From Bacteriovoracaceae bacterium (GTDB lineage: Bacteria > Bdellovibrionota > Bacteriovoracia > Bacteriovoracales > Bacteriovoracaceae), in the NCBI GenBank assembly GCA_947446575.1, contig CANFHC010000018.1, positions 1-60,266 on the forward strand: a stretch of 60,266 bases of DNA, in the 5' to 3' direction. The position numbers and the translations under genes are program-made. The stretch's first letter is position 1, and each line of letters opens with the position of its first letter. Below, in pieces: positions 890-54,763 of the stretch. The notes beneath the pieces were generated by a model, which did not search any database, was not told where the DNA came from, and was given only the letters and a program-made list of their open reading frames with translations.

Positions 890-2059
890 ATGAATAAAGC
901 CGCCTCTCTTTTAACTATTCTACTATGCTCATATCTTTTTTCAAGTAAGGCTTACTCATACCCTCATTTTATTTCCCATGGATATAACTCATGTATTACA
1001 TGTCACTATAATCCTTTCGGAAACGGTCCAATTAATGATTATGGTCGCGCAGTTTCAGGAACGGCTGTTTCAGGCAGAGAATTTTACGATGAACATAAGC
1101 CTGAAGATTTAATTGCTAGTGAAACAGCTTTTTTCTTTAAAGAGTCCACTAGTAAACATTTTCGCCCCTTCATAGGTTTTAGAGGACTCCTTTATAAGGC
1201 CAATTTAGGACAAGAAGGAAGTAAAACTGATTTTATCAATATGCAACTCGACGCTAATTTAGTTGCAAAATTTGGTGAAAAAGATCAATGGATCATGAGC
1301 GGGACATTTGGATACGCTCCAATTCCACGCGCACTTCAAAATACTGCGGCCGGCGATGCAATGAAAGAGTACCGCACTCGCGAACATTATATCGGATACC
1401 GCCCAAAACCAAATTTTGGAATTTATTTTGGATTAATGGATAAACCATTCGGCATTAGAGTTGTTGAACACAATTCATTCTCGCGAATTACTCCGCAATT
1501 AACAATGGATGATCAGGCTCATGGAATGATTCTCCATTACTCTAATCCAACATTTGAAGCAGGCCTTGATGCTTTTGTTGGAAATCTTTTAAATAAAGAA
1601 GATATTAGAATGAAAGGCATGAGTGCTACTTTTGAACAAACTGTTTTTGAAAAAAATAGAATTGGTGCGAGCTTCATGACTCAAAAAAACACTTATCTAA
1701 AAATGTTATCAACGGCGATTCATTCTCGCTCACAAATTACTCATGGAACAAGTGTCCTTTTTGAATTGGGAAAAGTTGATAAAACGCCCGAAGGAGCAAG
1801 CCCTAAACGAAGTGAATACTATGCTCTTCTACAAAACCATATAAGAACTAACCGTGGACTTTATTTTTTAAACTCTGTTGAATATTACAAAAATAATTTA
1901 GATAAAAATTACCGCGTTCGTTTTGGTCCAGGTCTGCAGTATTTCCCTTTTTCAAAGTTAGAACTTAGAACTGATGTTTATAACACTCGCAATTTTAACC
2001 AGGAAGCTACATCAAAAGATCGTTGGGATCTATTGATGCAAGTTCATGCGTGGTTTTAA
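890..2059 (+). CDS. Outer-membrane beta-barrel protein with one c-type haem site
   Basis: 389 aa with a signal peptide (about residues 1-23, cleavage near AYS-YP). A single haem-attachment motif C35-x-x-C38-H39 sits almost at the mature N-terminus, followed by an N-P-F-G-N-G type loop. The rest alternates short amphipathic, aromatic-rich strands with polar loops and ends in W-F, as expected of an outer-membrane barrel whose terminal aromatic is recognised by BAM. The likely role is a haem-bearing porin-like protein in periplasm-to-surface electron transfer, inferred from architecture. It is the first gene of a compact operon: its TAA overlaps the next ATG by one base (TAATG). I know no gene symbol for this family. 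Confidence 0.75.
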   Translation: MNKAASLLTILLCSYLFSSKAYSYPHFISHGYNSCITCHYNPFGNGPINDYGRAVSGTAVSGREFYDEHKPEDLIASETAFFFKESTSKHFRPFIGFRGLLYKANLGQEGSKTDFINMQLDANLVAKFGEKDQWIMSGTFGYAPIPRALQNTAAGDAMKEYRTREHYIGYRPKPNFGIYFGLMDKPFGIRVVEHNSFSRITPQLTMDDQAHGMILHYSNPTFEAGLDAFVGNLLNKEDIRMKGMSATFEQTVFEKNRIGASFMTQKNTYLKMLSTAIHSRSQITHGTSVLFELGKVDKTPEGASPKRSEYYALLQNHIRTNRGLYFLNSVEYYKNNLDKNYRVRFGPGLQYFPFSKLELRTDVYNTRNFNQEATSKDRWDLLMQVHAWF

Positions 2060-3114
2060 TGAAAAAAATAAACACTCTCATTCTACTTCTATCGATTTCA
2101 CAAGCCTATGCGACTAGTGATGTCGAAACTGATCTTAAAAAAATGCAACTTTCATTGGATAAAAATAATCCCGAGAATGTTGAAGAAATTTTTGACAATA
2201 ACGATTCAGCCTTAGGAAAAAACTGGATGGCCTTAGAGCGCCTTGCTCTAAGTTTTGAGCGCAGAAATAAATTTGAAAAGGCCATTGATGTGTACCGCAA
2301 ACTCATCGTAACATTTAATCAGGATGCCAATAAAGCAATAGTTCAAAATCCTAAGCCTCTTGTAGCAGAAAATTTATACACAACAAATAAACTTCCTTAT
2401 TATTATTACAAGTTAGCTTTTTTAAATGCTCAACTCTTTGTCTCTTCCAATAAATACATGCCGGCCCCAGAACGCATTAAATACAAAGAAAATGCCGAAG
2501 GATATATTGGGTTATTAAAAAAAGTGAATGCTGATGCCGGTGAGATAAAACTCATCGAAGATCAAATAGATGAAAAAATAAAAACTGAAGATCAATTGGC
2601 CTACAAAGGAAATTGGTATGCACTTATGGATATTATCAGCTGGCAAGATAGGGTCTATTTAAAAAATAAAGCTACTGGCTCTAAAACAAATCTTCTAAGT
2701 ACGGCCATTGGATCAAGCATTGGTCTAGGTCGAAAGTGGAGCAATTCTAAATACGAATTTAATATGGAAGGAATGTATTCCTACGCTACTTCTACCATTA
2801 ATTCTGAAGATCCTGCTGTGAATTACATTCAATCCTCTGTTCCTGTGAGCTCAATTATCGTCGGCCCAGGAATGTATTACAAAGTTTTCTCAGAAAAAGT
2901 TTTTGTCGGTGTTCAACTTCCTTTCTCTTACAGAAAAGGTAATTGGACTCTTCCTGCTGGAACTTATGAATTTGAAAACGACATACAATTAGGTGCTGGG
3001 TATTTCTTTCAAGTAAAATTTTATATCGGAAACATTGCCGTGGTTTCACGCTTAGGAAAAATTTTTCCGAATCCGGCTAGCCATTGGTCTATAGGAGCAG
3101 TTTATGATTTCTAA
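2059..3114 (+). CDS. Periplasmic/outer-membrane protein with TPR-like N-terminus and barrel-like C-terminus
   Basis: 351 aa. I start at the ATG overlapping the upstream stop (TAATG) because it gives a proper signal peptide (MKKINTLILLLSISQAYA). Residues about 20-190 are charged helices with tetratricopeptide-like spacing (W-x-A-L-E-R-L-A-x-x-F-E-x-x-x-K-F-E-K-A-I-D-V-Y). From about 200 on the sequence changes to alternating aromatic strands and ends V-Y-D-F, typical of a small outer-membrane barrel. It presumably partners the haem barrel encoded before it. The next gene starts 11 bases before its stop. Confidence 0.7.
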   Translation: MKKINTLILLLSISQAYATSDVETDLKKMQLSLDKNNPENVEEIFDNNDSALGKNWMALERLALSFERRNKFEKAIDVYRKLIVTFNQDANKAIVQNPKPLVAENLYTTNKLPYYYYKLAFLNAQLFVSSNKYMPAPERIKYKENAEGYIGLLKKVNADAGEIKLIEDQIDEKIKTEDQLAYKGNWYALMDIISWQDRVYLKNKATGSKTNLLSTAIGSSIGLGRKWSNSKYEFNMEGMYSYATSTINSEDPAVNYIQSSVPVSSIIVGPGMYYKVFSEKVFVGVQLPFSYRKGNWTLPAGTYEFENDIQLGAGYFFQVKFYIGNIAVVSRLGKIFPNPASHWSIGAVYDF

Positions 3115-3586
3115 AATTCTTATGACTCTGGTAACTTTTTTTTGCGCACAAACATTTGCCAGTGAAGTAACAGTTAAAATGACACTTTCTCCAGCTGGCT
3201 CATTCGAAGCAAAAACAACTAAAGTTCATGGCGAAGTGGTTAAGGCCGGTGAAAAATTTACTGCAGAGTCACTTTGGGTAAAAACAGAAGAACTTAAAAC
3301 TGGAATTGATTTAAGAGATGAGCATTTTCACAAACATTTAAATTTTGACAAATCTCCAAAAATTACTTTTAGTAATATCGAAGCAATAGCGGGTAAAGGA
3401 AGTGGAACACTTACCGTGAATGGTGTTTCTAATAAAGTCAATTTTACCTACAAATCTGTTTCTGATAAAAAACTTTTGGCCTCAATGAAAGTAAAGCCCA
3501 GTGCATTTAAATTAAAAGAAGCAAAATACCTTGAAATTGGGGTTGATGATGAAGTCGAAATTGTTGTTGATATGGATGTAAAATAA
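3104..3586 (+). CDS. YceI family periplasmic protein
   Basis: 160 aa, signal peptide then a lipocalin-like YceI domain across the mature protein. Family marks are the late R-D-E-H-F...L-N-F-D-K-S-P-K-I-T-F block (about residues 70-87) and the G-x-L-T-V-N-G-V-S-x-x-V segment (about 105-117). YceI proteins bind isoprenoid-type lipids or quinones in the periplasm. Next to two CxxCH proteins this suggests a quinone-linked function, which is inference. GGAG lies six bases before the ATG. The start overlaps the previous gene by 11 bases, so expression is coupled. Confidence 0.88.
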   Translation: MISKILMTLVTFFCAQTFASEVTVKMTLSPAGSFEAKTTKVHGEVVKAGEKFTAESLWVKTEELKTGIDLRDEHFHKHLNFDKSPKITFSNIEAIAGKGSGTLTVNGVSNKVNFTYKSVSDKKLLASMKVKPSAFKLKEAKYLEIGVDDEVEIVVDMDVK

Positions 3587-3600
3587 AATATAGATAATTA

Positions 3601-3969
3601 ATGATGAAAAAAAAGTTATTCATAATATTTTTTGCCATATTGTTAAGCTCCTGCGGACAGGATTATAATTCTAATTATAATGACCGTGGGACTTATGCTG
3701 ACATTGGAATTCCTCCAGGGGATCCCCTCTATACCCCGTACGTAATCCTGCAAAACAAATGTTTTTCTTGTCACAGTTCAGAATGGCAAAATTATAAAAC
3801 TTCAGCTCAATGGGTAACTGCTGGTCTTGTGACTGCTGGTAACTATAATATTTCAAAATTAAAAGTGAATTTAAAAAATTATAGTGGAGGAACAATGCCG
3901 CCCGATCCGACTTCTCCACTAACTAGCACTGAATTAGATACGTTAAAAACTTGGATAAACAATTTATAA
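3601..3969 (+). CDS. Small c-type cytochrome lipoprotein
   Basis: 122 aa. The signal peptide ends in a lipobox, L-L-S-S-C18-G, so Cys18 should be lipidated. One haem motif, C54-F-S-C57-H58, is followed by a possible axial Met99 in the G-G-T-M-P-P-D-P motif, as in small single-haem cytochromes of the Planctomycete-cytochrome-like class. The C-terminal helix L-D-T-L-K-T-W-I is typical of that fold. It closes the haem-barrel operon 14 bases after the YceI gene and converges with the M48 protease gene, overlapping it by six bases. Confidence 0.85.
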   Translation: MMKKKLFIIFFAILLSSCGQDYNSNYNDRGTYADIGIPPGDPLYTPYVILQNKCFSCHSSEWQNYKTSAQWVTAGLVTAGNYNISKLKVNLKNYSGGTMPPDPTSPLTSTELDTLKTWINNL

Positions 3970-4722
3970 AGAACAAATACTTTTTAAGTCTTCCCAATCT
4001 CGATCTTCTAAAACATTCACACTTTTCATTTCTAAAAATGGTTTTAACCTATCAATTCTTCTTTGATCACTCGGGTGATCTGAAAAAAGAATCGCCAAAG
4101 TCGAATCCGATTCCATCCGTTTAAAAAAATTATAAATTCCTTTGGGACTCACCTTTGCTTTTTGCAATCGACTAAGACCTTCAATGTCAGCCAATTCTTC
4201 CTCTGATCTCGTAAAGTGCATGTGTAAAAAATTTCCACTTATTTCAGAAACAGATCCACTCGCAATTATTCGTAATCCTTCTATCGTCATCATATGCACT
4301 AACATACCCTCCATGATATGGCGGTTTCTCACATGTTCAATTTCATGAGCCAGAACTCCCGTCAACTCTTCCGCGCTTGTTGCACGCTCCAAGAGTCCAC
4401 GATTAACATAAATTTTCCCACCCAGAGTTGCAAAGGCGTTTACTTCACTGCGATTGATGACTTCAACACTAAGAGGAAATTTTTCATCCCCAACCTTTAC
4501 GGGATAAATTCTTTTGACTAATTTATCTAAGGATTTTTGAGCAGCTATACTTCCTTTGCAAACTCCCCAACTGCTAGGCACACCGTAAACTTGCGCTAAT
4601 TTTTTTTCTATACTCCAAGGAATAAGTTTTACGATGGTACCAAAGCCAAAGGCCAAAGAACTGGCAATAATGATTGCCAGCAAAAGCCAAGTAAGTCCTA
4701 TCATTTTCCCAAAATTATTCAA
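3964..4722 (-). CDS. M48-family zinc metalloprotease, membrane-anchored
   Basis: 252 aa. One N-terminal hydrophobic segment (about residues 8-33) anchors or exports the protein. The zinc motif is H126-E-I-E-H130, with the downstream E-E-L-A-D motif (175-179) supplying the third ligand region. This is the Ste24/HtpX/BepA-like M48 arrangement without TPRs. A late H-P-S-D-Q-R-R motif (about 216-222) is also typical of the family. The likely role is quality control of envelope proteins. It lies three bases after the YbjQ-repeat gene and probably shares its transcript. Confidence 0.88.
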   Translation of the reverse strand: MNNFGKMIGLTWLLLAIIIASSLAFGFGTIVKLIPWSIEKKLAQVYGVPSSWGVCKGSIAAQKSLDKLVKRIYPVKVGDEKFPLSVEVINRSEVNAFATLGGKIYVNRGLLERATSAEELTGVLAHEIEHVRNRHIMEGMLVHMMTIEGLRIIASGSVSEISGNFLHMHFTRSEEELADIEGLSRLQKAKVSPKGIYNFFKRMESDSTLAILFSDHPSDQRRIDRLKPFLEMKSVNVLEDRDWEDLKSICSL

Positions 4723-4724
4723 AT

Positions 4725-5984
4725 CTATCTCATCATGACAAATTTAAAGATATAAAAAAGCACAATAAAAATGGCAAAAATAATCGCCATTGGTCCTTGT
4801 TGCATTCTTCGAGCTGAACTAGCTCCACCTTTAACTAAATCCAACGTCCCACCACCAAAACTTTCAATAAAAGTTTCTCTATCTTGAATAATGGCCTGAG
4901 GAGGAAGATTAGGATTAATTGTCGTTACTTCTCTCACTTTTTTTACAGCAGTCCCGATGGCCATAAATTCCACCATTCCGCCTCCAAGATCGTAGACGCG
5001 AGTTTTTACACCAACCACTTCATCTGCTCCACAATTAATGGCGTCTTGTTGAATACGGGCCAGAGCTTTTTCACGGGCCTCATATAAAATTTCAGTTAGA
5101 CCATCGACTTCCCCACCACCAAGAGATTGCAAGGCCGACATTATTCCACCTGCTAAACCTAGAGAGTACACAGAGACCCCCATGACTAATTGAATAGGAA
5201 GATAACCGATATTTACCATGTTCCACATTTCTTCATTGGTCATATCACTCGTCACTGGATTATTTTTAAATTCGTCTAGTAACGGATGATGAGAAGCAGT
5301 TCCAATCATAAGCATTTCCTGCGCACCCATAAGAGGAGCTAGCGTCGTTTCAATACCAATGACAGCATTGGCCCCTTGCTTTTTTGCTTCATTTTTAAGT
5401 CTGGTCAAGGCCAAGTGGCGAGTCTTATCAAAAATTTCTGTGAACTCTTTGACTTCCCCACGCTTTAAACTTTTAAATGCTCCTGCGATATTTCCTCCCA
5501 CCCCAATAGAATAAGCAACGTTTCCAAACACAAAACTCAATGGTGTAAATCCTGAATCAATTTGGCAATAGAGTTGCTGAACGTTAGCAGCTGTAGAAAA
5601 TTTTAAGGGTTCTTTTACTTCTTCACTATGATCAATGCTTCTCACGGCCGATCCGATGGCTAAAAATTCTAGATTTCCACCATGATTTATCAGTTCGAAT
5701 GAAACTCCAGATAGACCTAGTCCTCCTGCGGCTTTTGCTTCATTTATTAATCTCTCGATTGCTTTTTGTCTTCCATCATGAACCAATTGAGTAATCTCTT
5801 CAACTTCTCCACCACCTAAGTTAGATAGTCCAGCTCCAATCCCTCTGGTTACTCCAAGAGCGACAACGCTATTTCCAACACAAAGTTGACCAGGTCTGTA
5901 ACCTAATTTATTAAGACAAAAAATTTCATTACCGGATAAACCCGTCACCTGACGATGCATGCTACCAAGTTTCATGTTGATCAT
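4725..5984 (-). CDS. Triple YbjQ/UPF0145-domain protein with C-terminal membrane anchor
   Basis: About 419 aa from the ATG at 5984, chosen because AAGGAG stands seven bases before it; an upstream in-frame start lacks an RBS. The protein has three tandem copies of the YbjQ-like heavy-metal-binding-type domain, each with the pattern V-x-x-L-G-x-x-x-G-I-x-x-x-x-x-L-x-G-G-E-V then E-A-x-x-x-G-A-x-x-x-x-G-V. A single hydrophobic segment at the C-terminus (IIFAIFIVLFYIFKFV) is probably a tail anchor. YbjQ domains form pentamers; the function is not established. It is divergent from the thioredoxin gene. Confidence 0.8.
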   Translation of the reverse strand: MINMKLGSMHRQVTGLSGNEIFCLNKLGYRPGQLCVGNSVVALGVTRGIGAGLSNLGGGEVEEITQLVHDGRQKAIERLINEAKAAGGLGLSGVSFELINHGGNLEFLAIGSAVRSIDHSEEVKEPLKFSTAANVQQLYCQIDSGFTPLSFVFGNVAYSIGVGGNIAGAFKSLKRGEVKEFTEIFDKTRHLALTRLKNEAKKQGANAVIGIETTLAPLMGAQEMLMIGTASHHPLLDEFKNNPVTSDMTNEEMWNMVNIGYLPIQLVMGVSVYSLGLAGGIMSALQSLGGGEVDGLTEILYEAREKALARIQQDAINCGADEVVGVKTRVYDLGGGMVEFMAIGTAVKKVREVTTINPNLPPQAIIQDRETFIESFGGGTLDLVKGGASSARRMQQGPMAIIFAIFIVLFYIFKFVMMR

Positions 5985-49143: not shown

Positions 49144-51318
49144 ATGATTAACCTTCCAACATTTATCCAAGACCTATCACTCATTCTTATTACAGCTGGA
49201 ATTGTGGCAGTCATTTTCCGAAGAATAGGCCAGCCCGTTGTTCTTGGATACATTATTGCGGGCTTTCTTGTGAGCTCCCATATTTGGCTTATTCCAACGG
49301 TTCAAGATCTACCCAACATACAAGTCTTTGCGGATATAGGTGTAATCTTTCTTCTCTTCTCATTGGGATTAGAGTTTAGTTTCAAAAAATTATTAAAAGT
49401 AGGATGGCCTGCTGCCACTACTGCAATCTTTGAAGTCATAGGAATGATTGGATTAGGAATGTTAAGTGGATATTTTTTTGGTTGGTCTCTTTTAAATAGT
49501 TTATTTCTAGGAGGAATTCTTGCGATTTCATCGACAACGATTATTGTTCGCACATTAGGTGAAACCGGAATGAAAGGACGTGGTTTCATCGATTTTGTTT
49601 TTGGTATTTTAATCATTGAAGATTTAGTGGCCGTTTTGCTTTTAGTATTACTATCTACTGTGGCAGTAACAAATCAATTTATTGGCGCTGAGCTTGTTAC
49701 TTCTGCATTAAAACTCTTAACTTTTGTCGTCTTTTGTTTTGTTTCAGGAATATTTATACTTCCTTCATTGTTTCATTTAATTCACCAGCACTTAAATGAA
49801 GAAATGATGTTAATTGTTGCATTGGGACTTTGCTTTTTCATGGTTAAGCTCTCAACTCTTGCTGGATTCTCCCCTGCTTTGGGCGCATTTATGATGGGTT
49901 CCATAATTGCAGAAACAAACGAAGTTAAAAAGATAGAGCACCTAATAAAACCTGTGCGAGATTTATTTGGTGCAATTTTTTTTGTTTCTGTCGGCATTTT
50001 AATAGACCCAATCATTTTATTTGAATACAGCGGCCCCATAGCTATTTTAACACTTGTCACCTTATTTGGTAAATTCATAACTATTGTAATGGGTGGACTC
50101 ATCTCCAAAAGAAGTCTTAGGCATAGTGTGCAAGCAGGATTAAGCCTTGCTCAAATTGGAGAATTTTCATTTATCATCGCAGCATTAGGTCTAAACTTAA
50201 AAGTGACGAGTGCTTTTTTATATCCAATTGCTGTTGGAGTATCAGTTATCACGACTTTCACTACTCCTTACCTTATAAAAAATATTGATCCCATTTATAT
50301 TTGGATGGAAAAATTTATTCCACATTCGACTAGTCACAACTTGAGCCTTATACAATCAAATATTATGCCCAAAAAAATGTGGAGAGAAAATTTCTCATCT
50401 TCTCTAATCTTAATTGTCCTAAATTCTGTCATTATATATGCCATCTTTTTTTTCATTACGTGGCTCTTTCCCAAAAAAGGTGATTTAGTTTGTTTTGGGT
50501 TAACAGTTATTTTTTCAGCTCCTTTTTTCTGGGCCATTTTAATGAAAAAAAGAGCGATCACTGCAAATAACAAAGAAGAACGTATTTCCTTTGTTGTGTT
50601 AGAAGTTTTAAGAGTCGTAACAGTTTGGGCCCTTTTTAGATATATAGCTACGGATTATATCTCCCCTAAATATAAAACTTCCTTCGTTTTGTTTTTTACT
50701 TTGCTACTAATATTCTTTTTCTCTTCTTATTTGAAAAGAATTTATCACGTATTTGAAAAACATTTTTTAAAAAATTATTCTGAGTCTGACTTAGGCTCTA
50801 ACCCTGAAAAAGAATACGCATTTAATTCCTTTTCACAATGGGATGCTCACATAACTAATTTTGTCATCCCTGCTGAATCTGATGCGGTTGGAAAAACTCT
50901 GCATGAATTGAAGATTAGAGAAACTTTTGGTATTTCCATTGCTTTAATTGAAAGGGGTGAATTATTTATTGCGGCACCGGGAAGAGACGAGAAGCTATTT
51001 CCTAATGACCGCATTGCTTTAATTGGTAGTGATGATAAGTTGGAAGTCTTTACTAACTTTTTAAAAATAAAAAAAGATTCGTTTCTCAATAATCAAGTCA
51101 GTGATTATTCACTCCATCGAATTTTTGTCACAGATAAAAAAACCTTTGTTTTTAAAACAATTAAAAAATCGGGCATACGAGAAAAGACAGATGGAATGGT
51201 TGCCGGTATTGAGCGCCATGGAGAAAAAATATTAAATCCTGATTCAAATTTAGTAATACTTCCAGAAGATATTCTTTGGATAGTTGGAAACTCAAATAAA
51301 ATACAAAATCTAAACTAA
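49144..51318 (+). CDS. CPA2-family cation:proton antiporter with two TrkA-C domains
   Basis: 724 aa. A 13-helix Na+/H+-exchanger domain occupies about 1-380 (I-A-G-F, L-L-F-S-L-G-L-E-F-S, A-I-S-S-T-T-I-I-V-R, I-L-I-I-E-D-L-V, A-G-F-S-P-A-L-G-A-F). A further four-helix block follows (about 410-530). Then come two soluble RCK_C/TrkA-C-like domains, about 565-640 (F-V-I-P-A-E-S-D-A-V-G-K-T-L-H-E-L) and 650-720. It resembles KefB/RosB-type K+ or Na+ exporters gated by ligand. The extra domain makes it longer than KefB (about 600). Confidence 0.93.
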   Translation: MINLPTFIQDLSLILITAGIVAVIFRRIGQPVVLGYIIAGFLVSSHIWLIPTVQDLPNIQVFADIGVIFLLFSLGLEFSFKKLLKVGWPAATTAIFEVIGMIGLGMLSGYFFGWSLLNSLFLGGILAISSTTIIVRTLGETGMKGRGFIDFVFGILIIEDLVAVLLLVLLSTVAVTNQFIGAELVTSALKLLTFVVFCFVSGIFILPSLFHLIHQHLNEEMMLIVALGLCFFMVKLSTLAGFSPALGAFMMGSIIAETNEVKKIEHLIKPVRDLFGAIFFVSVGILIDPIILFEYSGPIAILTLVTLFGKFITIVMGGLISKRSLRHSVQAGLSLAQIGEFSFIIAALGLNLKVTSAFLYPIAVGVSVITTFTTPYLIKNIDPIYIWMEKFIPHSTSHNLSLIQSNIMPKKMWRENFSSSLILIVLNSVIIYAIFFFITWLFPKKGDLVCFGLTVIFSAPFFWAILMKKRAITANNKEERISFVVLEVLRVVTVWALFRYIATDYISPKYKTSFVLFFTLLLIFFFSSYLKRIYHVFEKHFLKNYSESDLGSNPEKEYAFNSFSQWDAHITNFVIPAESDAVGKTLHELKIRETFGISIALIERGELFIAAPGRDEKLFPNDRIALIGSDDKLEVFTNFLKIKKDSFLNNQVSDYSLHRIFVTDKKTFVFKTIKKSGIREKTDGMVAGIERHGEKILNPDSNLVILPEDILWIVGNSNKIQNLN

Positions 51319-51574
51319 ACAAAGGTAGACATTCCAGTAATGGCCCTACCTAATACTCAACTATTAATTCTTTCCTAGTTTTCGGGGACGTGATTGAGCT
51401 TGGAGAAGTTTATTAAGTAGTGAAAACTATATTTTGGTGAAATAAAGTTAAGTGTTTATTATAATTAGTCGATAATCTTTTTTATCAAGCATAATCTCAT
51501 TGGCATTGCCATAGTCATTGAGAGAGATTAAATAATTAAGACTTAGTCAAAAAACAACAAACCACGAGGATAAA
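51319..51574 (+). promoter_or_regulatory. Upstream region of the mgtE leader
   Basis: No gene. A TATAAT (51460-51465) is a possible -10 box, with only a weak -35 candidate TTGGTG (51434-51439). It probably supplies the mgtE promoter, separate from the antiporter operon. Confidence 0.4.
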
Positions 51575-51634
51575 ATGGACGAAGACCCCAATAAGTTTAG
51601 ATCTATTCATTCGGTGGCCTGTCCGCTGAAATAA
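51575..51634 (+). CDS. mgtE leader peptide, acidic-proline start
   Basis: A 19-residue ORF, MDEDPNKFRSIHSVACPLK, with GAGG five bases before the ATG (51566-51569), ends 55 bases before mgtE. The Met-Asp-Glu-Asp-Pro start resembles the Met-Glu-Pro-Asp-Pro start of enterobacterial MgtL. There, runs of acidic and proline residues destabilise the translating ribosome at low Mg2+ and so switch on the downstream Mg2+ transporter gene. The position in front of a Mg2+ transporter makes the same role here an attractive inference; it is not proven. Confidence 0.7.
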   Translation: MDEDPNKFRSIHSVACPLK

Positions 51635-51689
51635 GCGGGAAAGCTCTTATGTCTTTCCCTAAGAACACCCAGAATCTATTGGTGCTTAT
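51623..51689 (+). promoter_or_regulatory. mgtE leader hairpins, last one masking the ribosome-binding site
   Basis: Three hairpins: CCGCT/AGCGG (51623-51638) over the leader stop codon, GGGAAAG/CTTTCCC (51637-51659), and TAAG-aa-CACC / GGTG-CTTA (51660-51688). The first two share bases 51637-51638 and so exclude each other. The third hides GGTG, the only Shine-Dalgarno candidate of mgtE. The arrangement fits translational or attenuation control by ribosome position on the leader peptide. Confidence 0.65.
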
Positions 51690-53015
51690 ATGGAAACGAC
51701 TTTTTTAAATGACGATCTCTCACTAGAAAACTTGCTTGATCACTGGCAAGGGCTAACTCATAATGAGCGGGAAAAAATATTTTCCATGCTAGCTCGTATT
51801 GATCAGGAAGAACTTTTCATCAATCTCTCGAGTGATTACCAAGTCGAAATATTTGAAGAGTTACCGATTGCTGAAAAAAGAAGTTGGATAAGACTGCTCG
51901 CCCCCGATGATATTGCTGATCTTCTGCAAAATATGGAAGAAGACGATCAAAAAGCAACCATGCGACATCTCGACTACCCCACACTTATAGAAGTTAAAGC
52001 ACTGATGGCGTACGCTGAAGATGAGGCCGGTGGATTGATGAATTCCAGGTTTGCTCGCCTGCGTCCCGAAATGACCGTGGAAGAGGCTATTCGTTATTTG
52101 CGAGCTCAATCTAAATCACAAATTGAAACAATTTACTACGCCTATGTGCTTGAGCGCTCGCAAGTTTTATTAGGAGTCGTATCCCTTCGCGAATTATTCT
52201 TGGCCAATGCTGAATCAACAATTCAAGAAATAATGAACACTAACTTAGTCACTATTTTGCAAGATGAAGACCAAGAGAGTATTTCAAAAACTTTTTCTAA
52301 TCACAACTTTCTCGCTATTCCTGTTGTCGATGAACAGAACGTTATGAAAGGGATCATTACGGTCGATGACGTCGTTGAAGTTATTGAAGAAGAAGCTACT
52401 GAAGATATTCAAAAGATGGGAGGTATGGAAGCTCTAGGAGAACCATATCTAGAAATTGCGCTGCCTACGATGATTAAAAAGCGTGCTGGCTGGTTAATGG
52501 CGCTCTTTATTGGTGAGATGTTTACAGCTACGGCCATGAGCCACTATGAACATGACATCGCAAAAGCTGTTGTACTTGCCCTCTTCATTCCTTTGGTCAT
52601 CAGCTCTGGAGGAAATTCGGGATCACAAGCAACTACTCTTATTATCCGTGCTATGGCCTTAGGTGAAGTTCGGCTAAAAGATTGGTGGCGTGTTTTTTCT
52701 AGAGAATTAGTATCCGGATTAAGTTTAGGACTTATTTTAGGCTCAATTGGATTTTGTCGGATCATTTTGTGGCCGAGTAGAGAAACTCTTTACGGTGAAC
52801 ATTATCTTTTGGTCGCTTTGACTGTTGCTTTAAGTTTAGTTGGAATTGTTTTATGGGGAACACTTGCTGGATCCATGCTGCCTTTTGTCTTGCGCAAACT
52901 AGGCCTTGACCCTGCCACCTCTTCAGCGCCTTTTGTAGCAACCTTAGTGGACGTTACAGGACTCGTCATTTATTTTACGGTAGCAAGTTTATTCTTAAAG
53001 GGAATTCTACTTTGA
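51690..53015 (+). CDS. mgtE: Magnesium transporter MgtE
   Basis: 441 aa. The N-terminal helical MgtE_N domain (about 10-120) has F-E-E-L-P and L-L-A-P-D-D-I-A-D-L-L-Q-N-M. Two CBS repeats (about 120-240) carry acidic Mg2+-sensing residues, and five TM helices form the C-terminus. The pore signature is G-G-N-S-G-S-Q-A-T-T-L-I-I-R-A-M-A-L-G-E (about 308-327). The dimeric channel imports Mg2+ and is closed when the CBS/N domains bind Mg2+. With the leader (51575-51689), expression and activity would both be Mg2+-controlled. Confidence 0.97.
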   Translation: METTFLNDDLSLENLLDHWQGLTHNEREKIFSMLARIDQEELFINLSSDYQVEIFEELPIAEKRSWIRLLAPDDIADLLQNMEEDDQKATMRHLDYPTLIEVKALMAYAEDEAGGLMNSRFARLRPEMTVEEAIRYLRAQSKSQIETIYYAYVLERSQVLLGVVSLRELFLANAESTIQEIMNTNLVTILQDEDQESISKTFSNHNFLAIPVVDEQNVMKGIITVDDVVEVIEEEATEDIQKMGGMEALGEPYLEIALPTMIKKRAGWLMALFIGEMFTATAMSHYEHDIAKAVVLALFIPLVISSGGNSGSQATTLIIRAMALGEVRLKDWWRVFSRELVSGLSLGLILGSIGFCRIILWPSRETLYGEHYLLVALTVALSLVGIVLWGTLAGSMLPFVLRKLGLDPATSSAPFVATLVDVTGLVIYFTVASLFLKGILL

Positions 53016-54475: not shown

Positions 54476-54763
54476 TTATTTTTTAGCTGTTTCAGTAGCT
54501 GGAGCAGTAGTAGCTGCAGCGTTTACAACTTCTTTAGCGTCTTTTTTAGCAGCTTTTGCGTGTTTTTTAGCTTTTTTAGCTGGAACAACAGCAGCAGCGT
54601 CAGTAGTTGGAGCAACTTCTGTAGTTGTAGCAGTTTTAGCTTCTACAGCTTTAGTTTCTACAGCTTTAGCTTCTACAGCTTTAGCAGCTTTAACTTCTTT
54701 TTTGTCATTAGCAAAAGAAACAACTGAAGTAAGAGCAAGAGCGATTACGATAAGAGATTTCAT
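54476..54763 (-). CDS. Secreted Ala/Lys/Thr/Val-rich repeat protein
   Basis: 95 aa. A clear signal peptide (1-18, cleavage S-F-A-N). The mature part is low-complexity, with KAVEAK/KAVETK/KAVEAK repeats (about 28-43), a TTTEVAPTTDAAAVVPA linker, and a basic K-K-A-K-K-H-A-K-A-A-K-K stretch (about 63-74). It has no cysteines or hydrophobic core. It could coat DNA or envelope polymers, but no function is known. AGGAACT precedes the ATG and it is probably highly expressed, given the strong terminator and regular codons. Confidence 0.75.
   Translation of the reverse strand: MKSLIVIALALTSVVSFANDKKEVKAAKAVEAKAVETKAVEAKTATTTEVAPTTDAAAVVPAKKAKKHAKAAKKDAKEVVNAAATTAPATETAKK

Follow-up and report, generated by a model that had tools for sequence, protein, structure and literature searches.

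An acidic-proline leader and a candidate mgtQ-like translation attenuator in front of mgtE in Bacteriovoracaceae

The magnesium transporter gene mgtE of a Bacteriovoracaceae bacterium is preceded by a short open reading frame (ORF) whose product starts with Met-Asp-Glu-Asp-Pro, which raises the question of whether this leader controls the transporter gene and, if so, in what way. We addressed this question in the window, that is, the whole stretch of 60,266 nucleotides analysed (contig CANFHC010000018.1, positions 1 to 60,266 of the forward strand), and compared its leader region with those of related and unrelated genomes.

Layout of the leader region

The gene mgtE was identified by its match to TIGR00400 (353 bits, cut-off 232.75), together with the three Pfam matches listed in Table 1, and it starts 55 nt past the leader ORF. 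Judged from its sequence, the upstream neighbour (49144-51318) is a cation:proton antiporter-like gene. Elsewhere in the window, positions 54476-54763 of the minus strand encode a small protein that has degenerate Ala/Lys/Glu repeats (KAVEAKAVETKAVEAK..) and starts like a signal peptide.

An earlier note on this DNA had described a 19-codon ORF with its own ribosome-binding site (RBS), a hairpin over its stop, a second hairpin that excludes the first, and a third one that hides the only Shine-Dalgarno (SD) candidate of mgtE, and all of these elements were found at the locus. Hairpins 1 and 2 have bases 51637-51639 in common and are mutually exclusive. In addition, the leader SD region (segment 0) can pair with a stretch inside the ORF when the leader is free of ribosomes, and equivalent pairs are found in relatives (CTCTACTGAG with CTCAGTGGAG in L007; CTCAGGAG with TTCCTGAG in L111). 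Another helix, sequestor B:C, encloses hairpin 3; its GGAAACGAC arm lies inside mgtE, and the helix is predicted to mask both the SD and the AUG of mgtE. When the window leader was folded whole, its difference from shuffled sequences was not significant (z = -0.90 and -0.75). Since this single-sequence fold is unremarkable, any claim for the locus must rest on comparison.

Table 1 Features of the leader region and of mgtE in the window.
Feature	Positions	Strand	Remarks
Promoter-like box, TTGCCA-n16-TTAAAT	51506..51533	+	predicted transcription start at about 51540
Segment 0, leader SD region CCACGAGGAT	51562..51571	+	pairs with 51609-51617 (ATTCGGTGG) when the leader is ribosome-free; MFE fold
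Leader SD, GAGG	51566-51569	+	precedes leader ATG at 51575
Leader ORF, MDEDPNKFRSIHSVACPLK, 19 codons	51575..51634 (stop included)	+	ATG-GAC-GAA/G-GAC/T(or CAC)-CCC/G common to 8/9 orthologs and the ABC leaders
Hairpin 1, over leader stop	51622..51639	+	TCCGCT 51622-51627 / AGCGGG 51634-51639; same sequence in L003
Hairpin 2, anti-sequestor A:B	51637..51659	+	GGGAAAG 51637-51643 / CTTTCCC 51653-51659
Sequestor B:C	51651..51700	+	GTCTTTCC 51651-51658 / GGAAACGAC 51692-51700; fold with ribosome at stop
Hairpin 3	51660-51669 / 51681-51688	+	TAAG..CACC / GGTGCTTA; covers the sole SD-like motif of mgtE
mgtE SD candidate, GGTG	51681..51684	+	5 nt before ATG; identical GGTG in 7/9 orthologs
mgtE, target gene	51690..53015	+	magnesium transporter, 441 aa; TIGR00400, PF01769, PF00571, PF03448

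Recurrence in the genus and in a second lineage

Within the host genus, which belongs to the Bacteriovoracaceae, 9 of 14 genomes carry a close mgtE ortholog (68-100% identity), the closest named one being that of Bacteriovorax sp. Gw_Eff_bin_80 (L051). The leader start M-D-E-[D/H]-P is retained in eight of the nine, each with a GAG-type SD; seven leaders read MDEDP[N/K/R] and one (L010) reads MDEHP. Past codon 5 the peptide is variable, and its length ranges from 12 to 21 codons over the mgtE leaders and the ABC-transporter leaders described below. All eight mgtE leaders have TTGCCA 65-74 nt before the leader ATG, a spacer of 15-16 nt and an A/T-rich -10-like hexamer. Since this promoter-like box is conserved upstream of the ORF, transcription probably starts upstream of the leader ORF and not downstream of position 51575.

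The attenuator layout is likewise kept across the genus, though the sequences of the helices differ. Helix A:B is replaced by AGTGGAG/CTCCACT in L005, L007 and L009, by AGTGGA/TCCACT in L006 and L008, and by GCGGAAAG/CTTTCCGC in L010, and a compensatory change from TAAG/CTTA to TTAG/CTAA separates L002 from L003. The earlier note had proposed a check in relatives for conserved acidic/proline codons and covarying hairpins: the codons are conserved and the layout with its exclusive pairing is kept, but strict covariation in the genus is thin at one compensatory pair, with loop lengths too variable for MAFFT-based covariation counting. A natural deletion is found in the ninth ortholog, L004 (G003:C62), which has lost the leader and the masking stem and retains a TTGCCT-n16-TTAATT match; its mgtE start is open, at 3.0 kcal/mol, whereas the other mgtE leaders need 7.8-12.0 kcal/mol when a ribosome is at the stop.

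A search for the pattern MDE[DH]P led to a second leader, of the MDEHP type (MDEHPTNIFYVPEKNNANF and variants of it), before an ABC-transporter operon in three genomes of the genus (L110, 1501-3014; L111; L112), with the attenuator layout as at mgtE. These three leaders have TTGCCA or TTGCCT at -73/-74 with TATATT. The gene directly after the leader encodes a duplicated ABC permease of 585/586 aa, and in L141 (operon 1641-4860) an AAA_assoc_C-domain ATPase follows. This operon is a candidate for an uptake system that responds to Mg2+. The nearest permease relative outside the family (L185, from another family; 57% identity) is preceded by MDDDPAGNSIKIH (L185, 1308-1452), an MDDDP leader with its own SD, whose predicted accessibility curve, tested apart from the 17 leaders considered below, was not as expected. 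Other ABC-permease relatives (35-55% identity) had no such leader, and there were no Rfam matches around 20 ABC-permease relatives. Separately, MDDDPGQVLLTKSIMN with a strong SD was seen in L230 (G105:C194) before an ORF of 104 aa whose start resembles a signal peptide; this may be chance.

Among 55 mgtE loci, five have leaders beginning MDDPLS; their records carry the titles Myxococcales UBA4248 or Proteobacteria RGIG and are mostly from ruminant gut. Within the order to which one of them belongs, MDDPLS stands before mgtE in six of the seven mgtE-bearing genomes (L147-L150, L142/L152 and L153; the sixth genome, G132, is represented by L077/L142), and codons 2-6 show synonymous variation only. 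Downstream lie mutually exclusive GAGGAAG/CTTCCTC/GAGGAAGAC segments, with A being GAGGAAG-like, B GTCTTCCTC-like and C GAGGAAGAC-like. Here segment C provides the SD for another short ORF, which either lies upstream of mgtE or runs into it, and translation of this second ORF would presumably be coupled to that of mgtE. The helices are unlike those of the Bacteriovoracaceae and the pairing logic is equal; the MDDPLS leaders are unrelated to the genus leaders and are an independent version. Its recurrence in front of further transporter genes and in a second lineage gives the layout the look of a magnesium switch that arose independently.

Beyond these groups, the pattern GAGG..MDE[DH]P returned from 369 genomes solely the mgtE leaders of the genus and three chance matches. 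Outside the genus, the MDE[DH]P matches fell within long ORFs or stood ahead of unrelated genes, and the looser pattern M[DE][DE]xP added nothing convincing. No convincing leader was seen at 20 further Bdellovibrionota mgtE loci, most of which have another gene's end close upstream. The 369-genome search and these 20 loci ruled out phylum-wide conservation of the mgtE leader, and among the mgtE genes inspected the device appears, from sequence patterns, limited to this genus within Bdellovibrionota. The earlier proposal that it evolved "in this phylum" instead of the M-box riboswitch is thus too broad, because the other inspected mgtE genes of the phylum are without a leader; there is no phylum-wide replacement, and another lineage has its own, independent version.

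Ribosome position and opening of the target start

We computed the opening energy of the target start (positions -10 to +3; in the MDDPLS lineage, of the start of the second ORF) while the ribosome front was varied along the leader. The test set comprised 17 leaders, namely eight mgtE and three ABC leaders of the genus and six of the MDDPLS lineage, with 60 shuffles per leader. In this thermodynamic folding, which ignores co-transcriptional kinetics and assumes a ribosome footprint, the target of all 17 leaders opened more easily with the front at +28, on the early codons, than with a ribosome at the stop; the difference was 2.9-13.5 kcal/mol. In upstream-shuffled controls it was about -0.4 +/- 2, and 0-3% of these controls attained the observed value. 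Relative to the early state, the ribosome-free leader was closed more tightly in 15 of 17 cases (L149 was equal and L153 reversed). In nearly all leaders, opening energy climbed once the front was beyond about +34 to +46 nt, which in this model would fit ribosomes that are halted around codons 2-8. For the window leader, the naked state was the more closed one by just 1.0 kcal/mol relative to the early state, a value attained by 7% of shuffles, and the accessibility curve was non-monotonic, with a second dip at +50 to +62. The curves of L002 and L003 were less clean, with a dip at +50 to +62 and closing at +66. Between groups, helices 0:A, A:B and B:C differ in sequence and the pairing logic is retained. 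The conserved ORF start with its promoter-like box, the exclusive helices and the position-dependent opening of the target are all computed properties of these leaders.

On the strength of the comparison and this modelling, we consider it likely that the region works as a four-segment translation attenuator, in which translation of mgtE would be coupled to the passage of ribosomes over the first leader codons. In this scheme, 0:A together with B:C would be the OFF state and A:B the ON state. Without a ribosome on the leader, segment 0 would pair with A and leave B free for C, so that the SD and AUG of mgtE would be hidden. When Mg2+ is ample, ribosomes would clear M-D-E-D-P, reach the stop and cover A, and B:C would again form. 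When Mg2+ is low, ribosomes would pause or drop off at the acidic-proline codons; newly arriving ribosomes would then cover segment 0 and leave A free, A:B would form, and the mgtE start would be open. What we infer is that the leader is translated, that ribosomes pause or drop off at the D/E/P codons and that Mg2+ is the signal; acidic-proline codons 2-5 would, by analogy with mgtL (PMC11282234 and references) and mgtQ (PMC8092293), for which this has been shown, be a natural place for Mg2+-dependent faltering. Points that speak against this reading are the small naked-state difference and the non-monotonic curve of the window leader, the deviating curve of L185, the thin covariation and the absence of a leader from L004 and L151.

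Alternative readings and known systems

The attenuator could be real and respond to a signal other than Mg2+, such as proline or aspartate charging, the status of EF-P or EttA, polyamines or the general state of the ribosome. EttA relieves pausing at acidic/proline codons (PMC11282234), and the Mg2+ dependence of such codons is known just for enterobacteria; in open-licence PMC papers, Mg2+ sensing by acidic/proline ribosome destabilisation was found only from these bacteria (mgtL and mgtQ, and more weakly corL). However, in two lineages the target belongs to a family of magnesium transporters, MgtE, and the motif combines acidic residues with one proline and has no single-amino-acid run, which makes another signal unlikely in our view.

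The enterobacterial MgtL leader was reportedly studied by Chadani (2017) and Gall (2016). As described in PMC11282234, which cites these studies, MgtL has an EPDP start, and its Mg2+-dependent faltering governs Rho-dependent termination of the P-type ATPase gene mgtA. The leaders described here resemble it in having acidic/proline codons right behind the start, upstream of a Mg2+ transporter gene, although DEDP, DEHP or DDP is analogous to EPDP and not identical. If they worked in the MgtL way, full translation of the leader would expose a Rho site and end transcription, and early drop-off would keep transcription going. We think this quite improbable in spite of the similar peptide logic (PMC11282234), since the target start lies within an exclusive helix in the three sequence groups, which a purely transcriptional device would not need, and no intrinsic terminator was found. 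Also, RBS masking is predicted here in place of Rho-dependent termination, and MgtE (TIGR00400/PF01769) is unrelated to the P-type ATPase MgtA. The view that an acidic-proline leader controls mgtE is well supported by anatomy and comparison, but the mechanism appears nearer to mgtQ/mgtB translation attenuation than to Rho-dependent MgtL, and for the label "MgtL-like" in the earlier note "mgtQ-like attenuator with an acidic-proline leader" would be the better wording.

In other bacteria, the M-box (ykoK) Mg2+ riboswitch is a known 5' regulator of mgtE. The window differs in having no covariance-model match: no Rfam family reached the gathering threshold, and M-box was absent among matches with E<=10. 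With the ORF and hairpins kept in relatives and a promoter-like box ahead of the ORF, none of the three outcomes that the earlier note had named as refuting its proposal was observed. A direct Mg2+-binding riboswitch or an RNA thermometer with an incidental ORF is very doubtful here, even though the structured leader masks the SD and a candidate riboswitch, the "mgtE motif", has been put forward in Thioalkalivibrio (PMC11109978). Compared by description, that motif is similar in lying in an mgtE 5' region with SD and AUG at a stem base, and different in its taxon and its riboswitch-candidate class (PMC11109978). In the present leaders the start of the peptide is conserved, with synonymous changes only in the second lineage, whereas the helices are freely replaced, which is the reverse of an aptamer. 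We give practically no weight to a chance origin of the ORF and hairpins, since, although folding of the single sequence did not surpass that of shuffles, the start, SD and box are conserved in 8/9 orthologs, a second gene and a second lineage have the layout, and the switch goes beyond shuffles.

Returning to the four-segment attenuator, no described mgtE leader peptide was found in open-licence PMC papers, in agreement with the earlier note, which knew of no such case. We hold it an evenly balanced proposition that bacteria have repeatedly and independently evolved acidic-proline leader attenuators for ribosome-based Mg2+ sensing, in at least two lineages outside Enterobacterales and on MgtE and ABC transporters, with the ABC operon to be marked accordingly. 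If Bacteriovoracaceae and another lineage came to this logic separately, on unrelated transporter families, the ribosome would be a general Mg2+ sensor; short MD(E)DP leaders would then serve to find Mg2+-regulated genes, the ABC operon being the first such prediction.

In the classical trp and erm leader attenuators, the position of the ribosome selects between exclusive helices. The ribosome-position logic proposed here is alike, the signal and target differ, and the stall codons would be acidic-proline ones. In Salmonella, the uORF mgtQ of the mgtCBRU operon has eight codons (Asp2, Glu5) and controls the P-type ATPase MgtB; its acidic codons reduce uORF translation, L31 counteracts this, and the alternation of segments 1:2 and 3:4 (OFF) with 2:3 (ON) was shown by mutation (PMC8092293). 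A short SD-led ORF with early acidic codons upstream of a Mg2+ transporter is found here as well, and folding predicts the further likenesses, namely the alternative helices 1:2+3:4 versus 2:3, the transporter RBS in 3:4 and control at the level of translation. In contrast, mgtQ sits between mgtC and mgtB in Enterobacterales and its target is a P-type ATPase, while the present leaders stand at the 5' end behind their own promoter-like box, in another phylum, before MgtE or an ABC transporter. Because mgtQ has the same 1:2/3:4 versus 2:3 scheme and a hidden transporter RBS, the best statement by analogy is that the leader works like mgtQ; given its 5' position before mgtE in another phylum, no membership by descent is implied.
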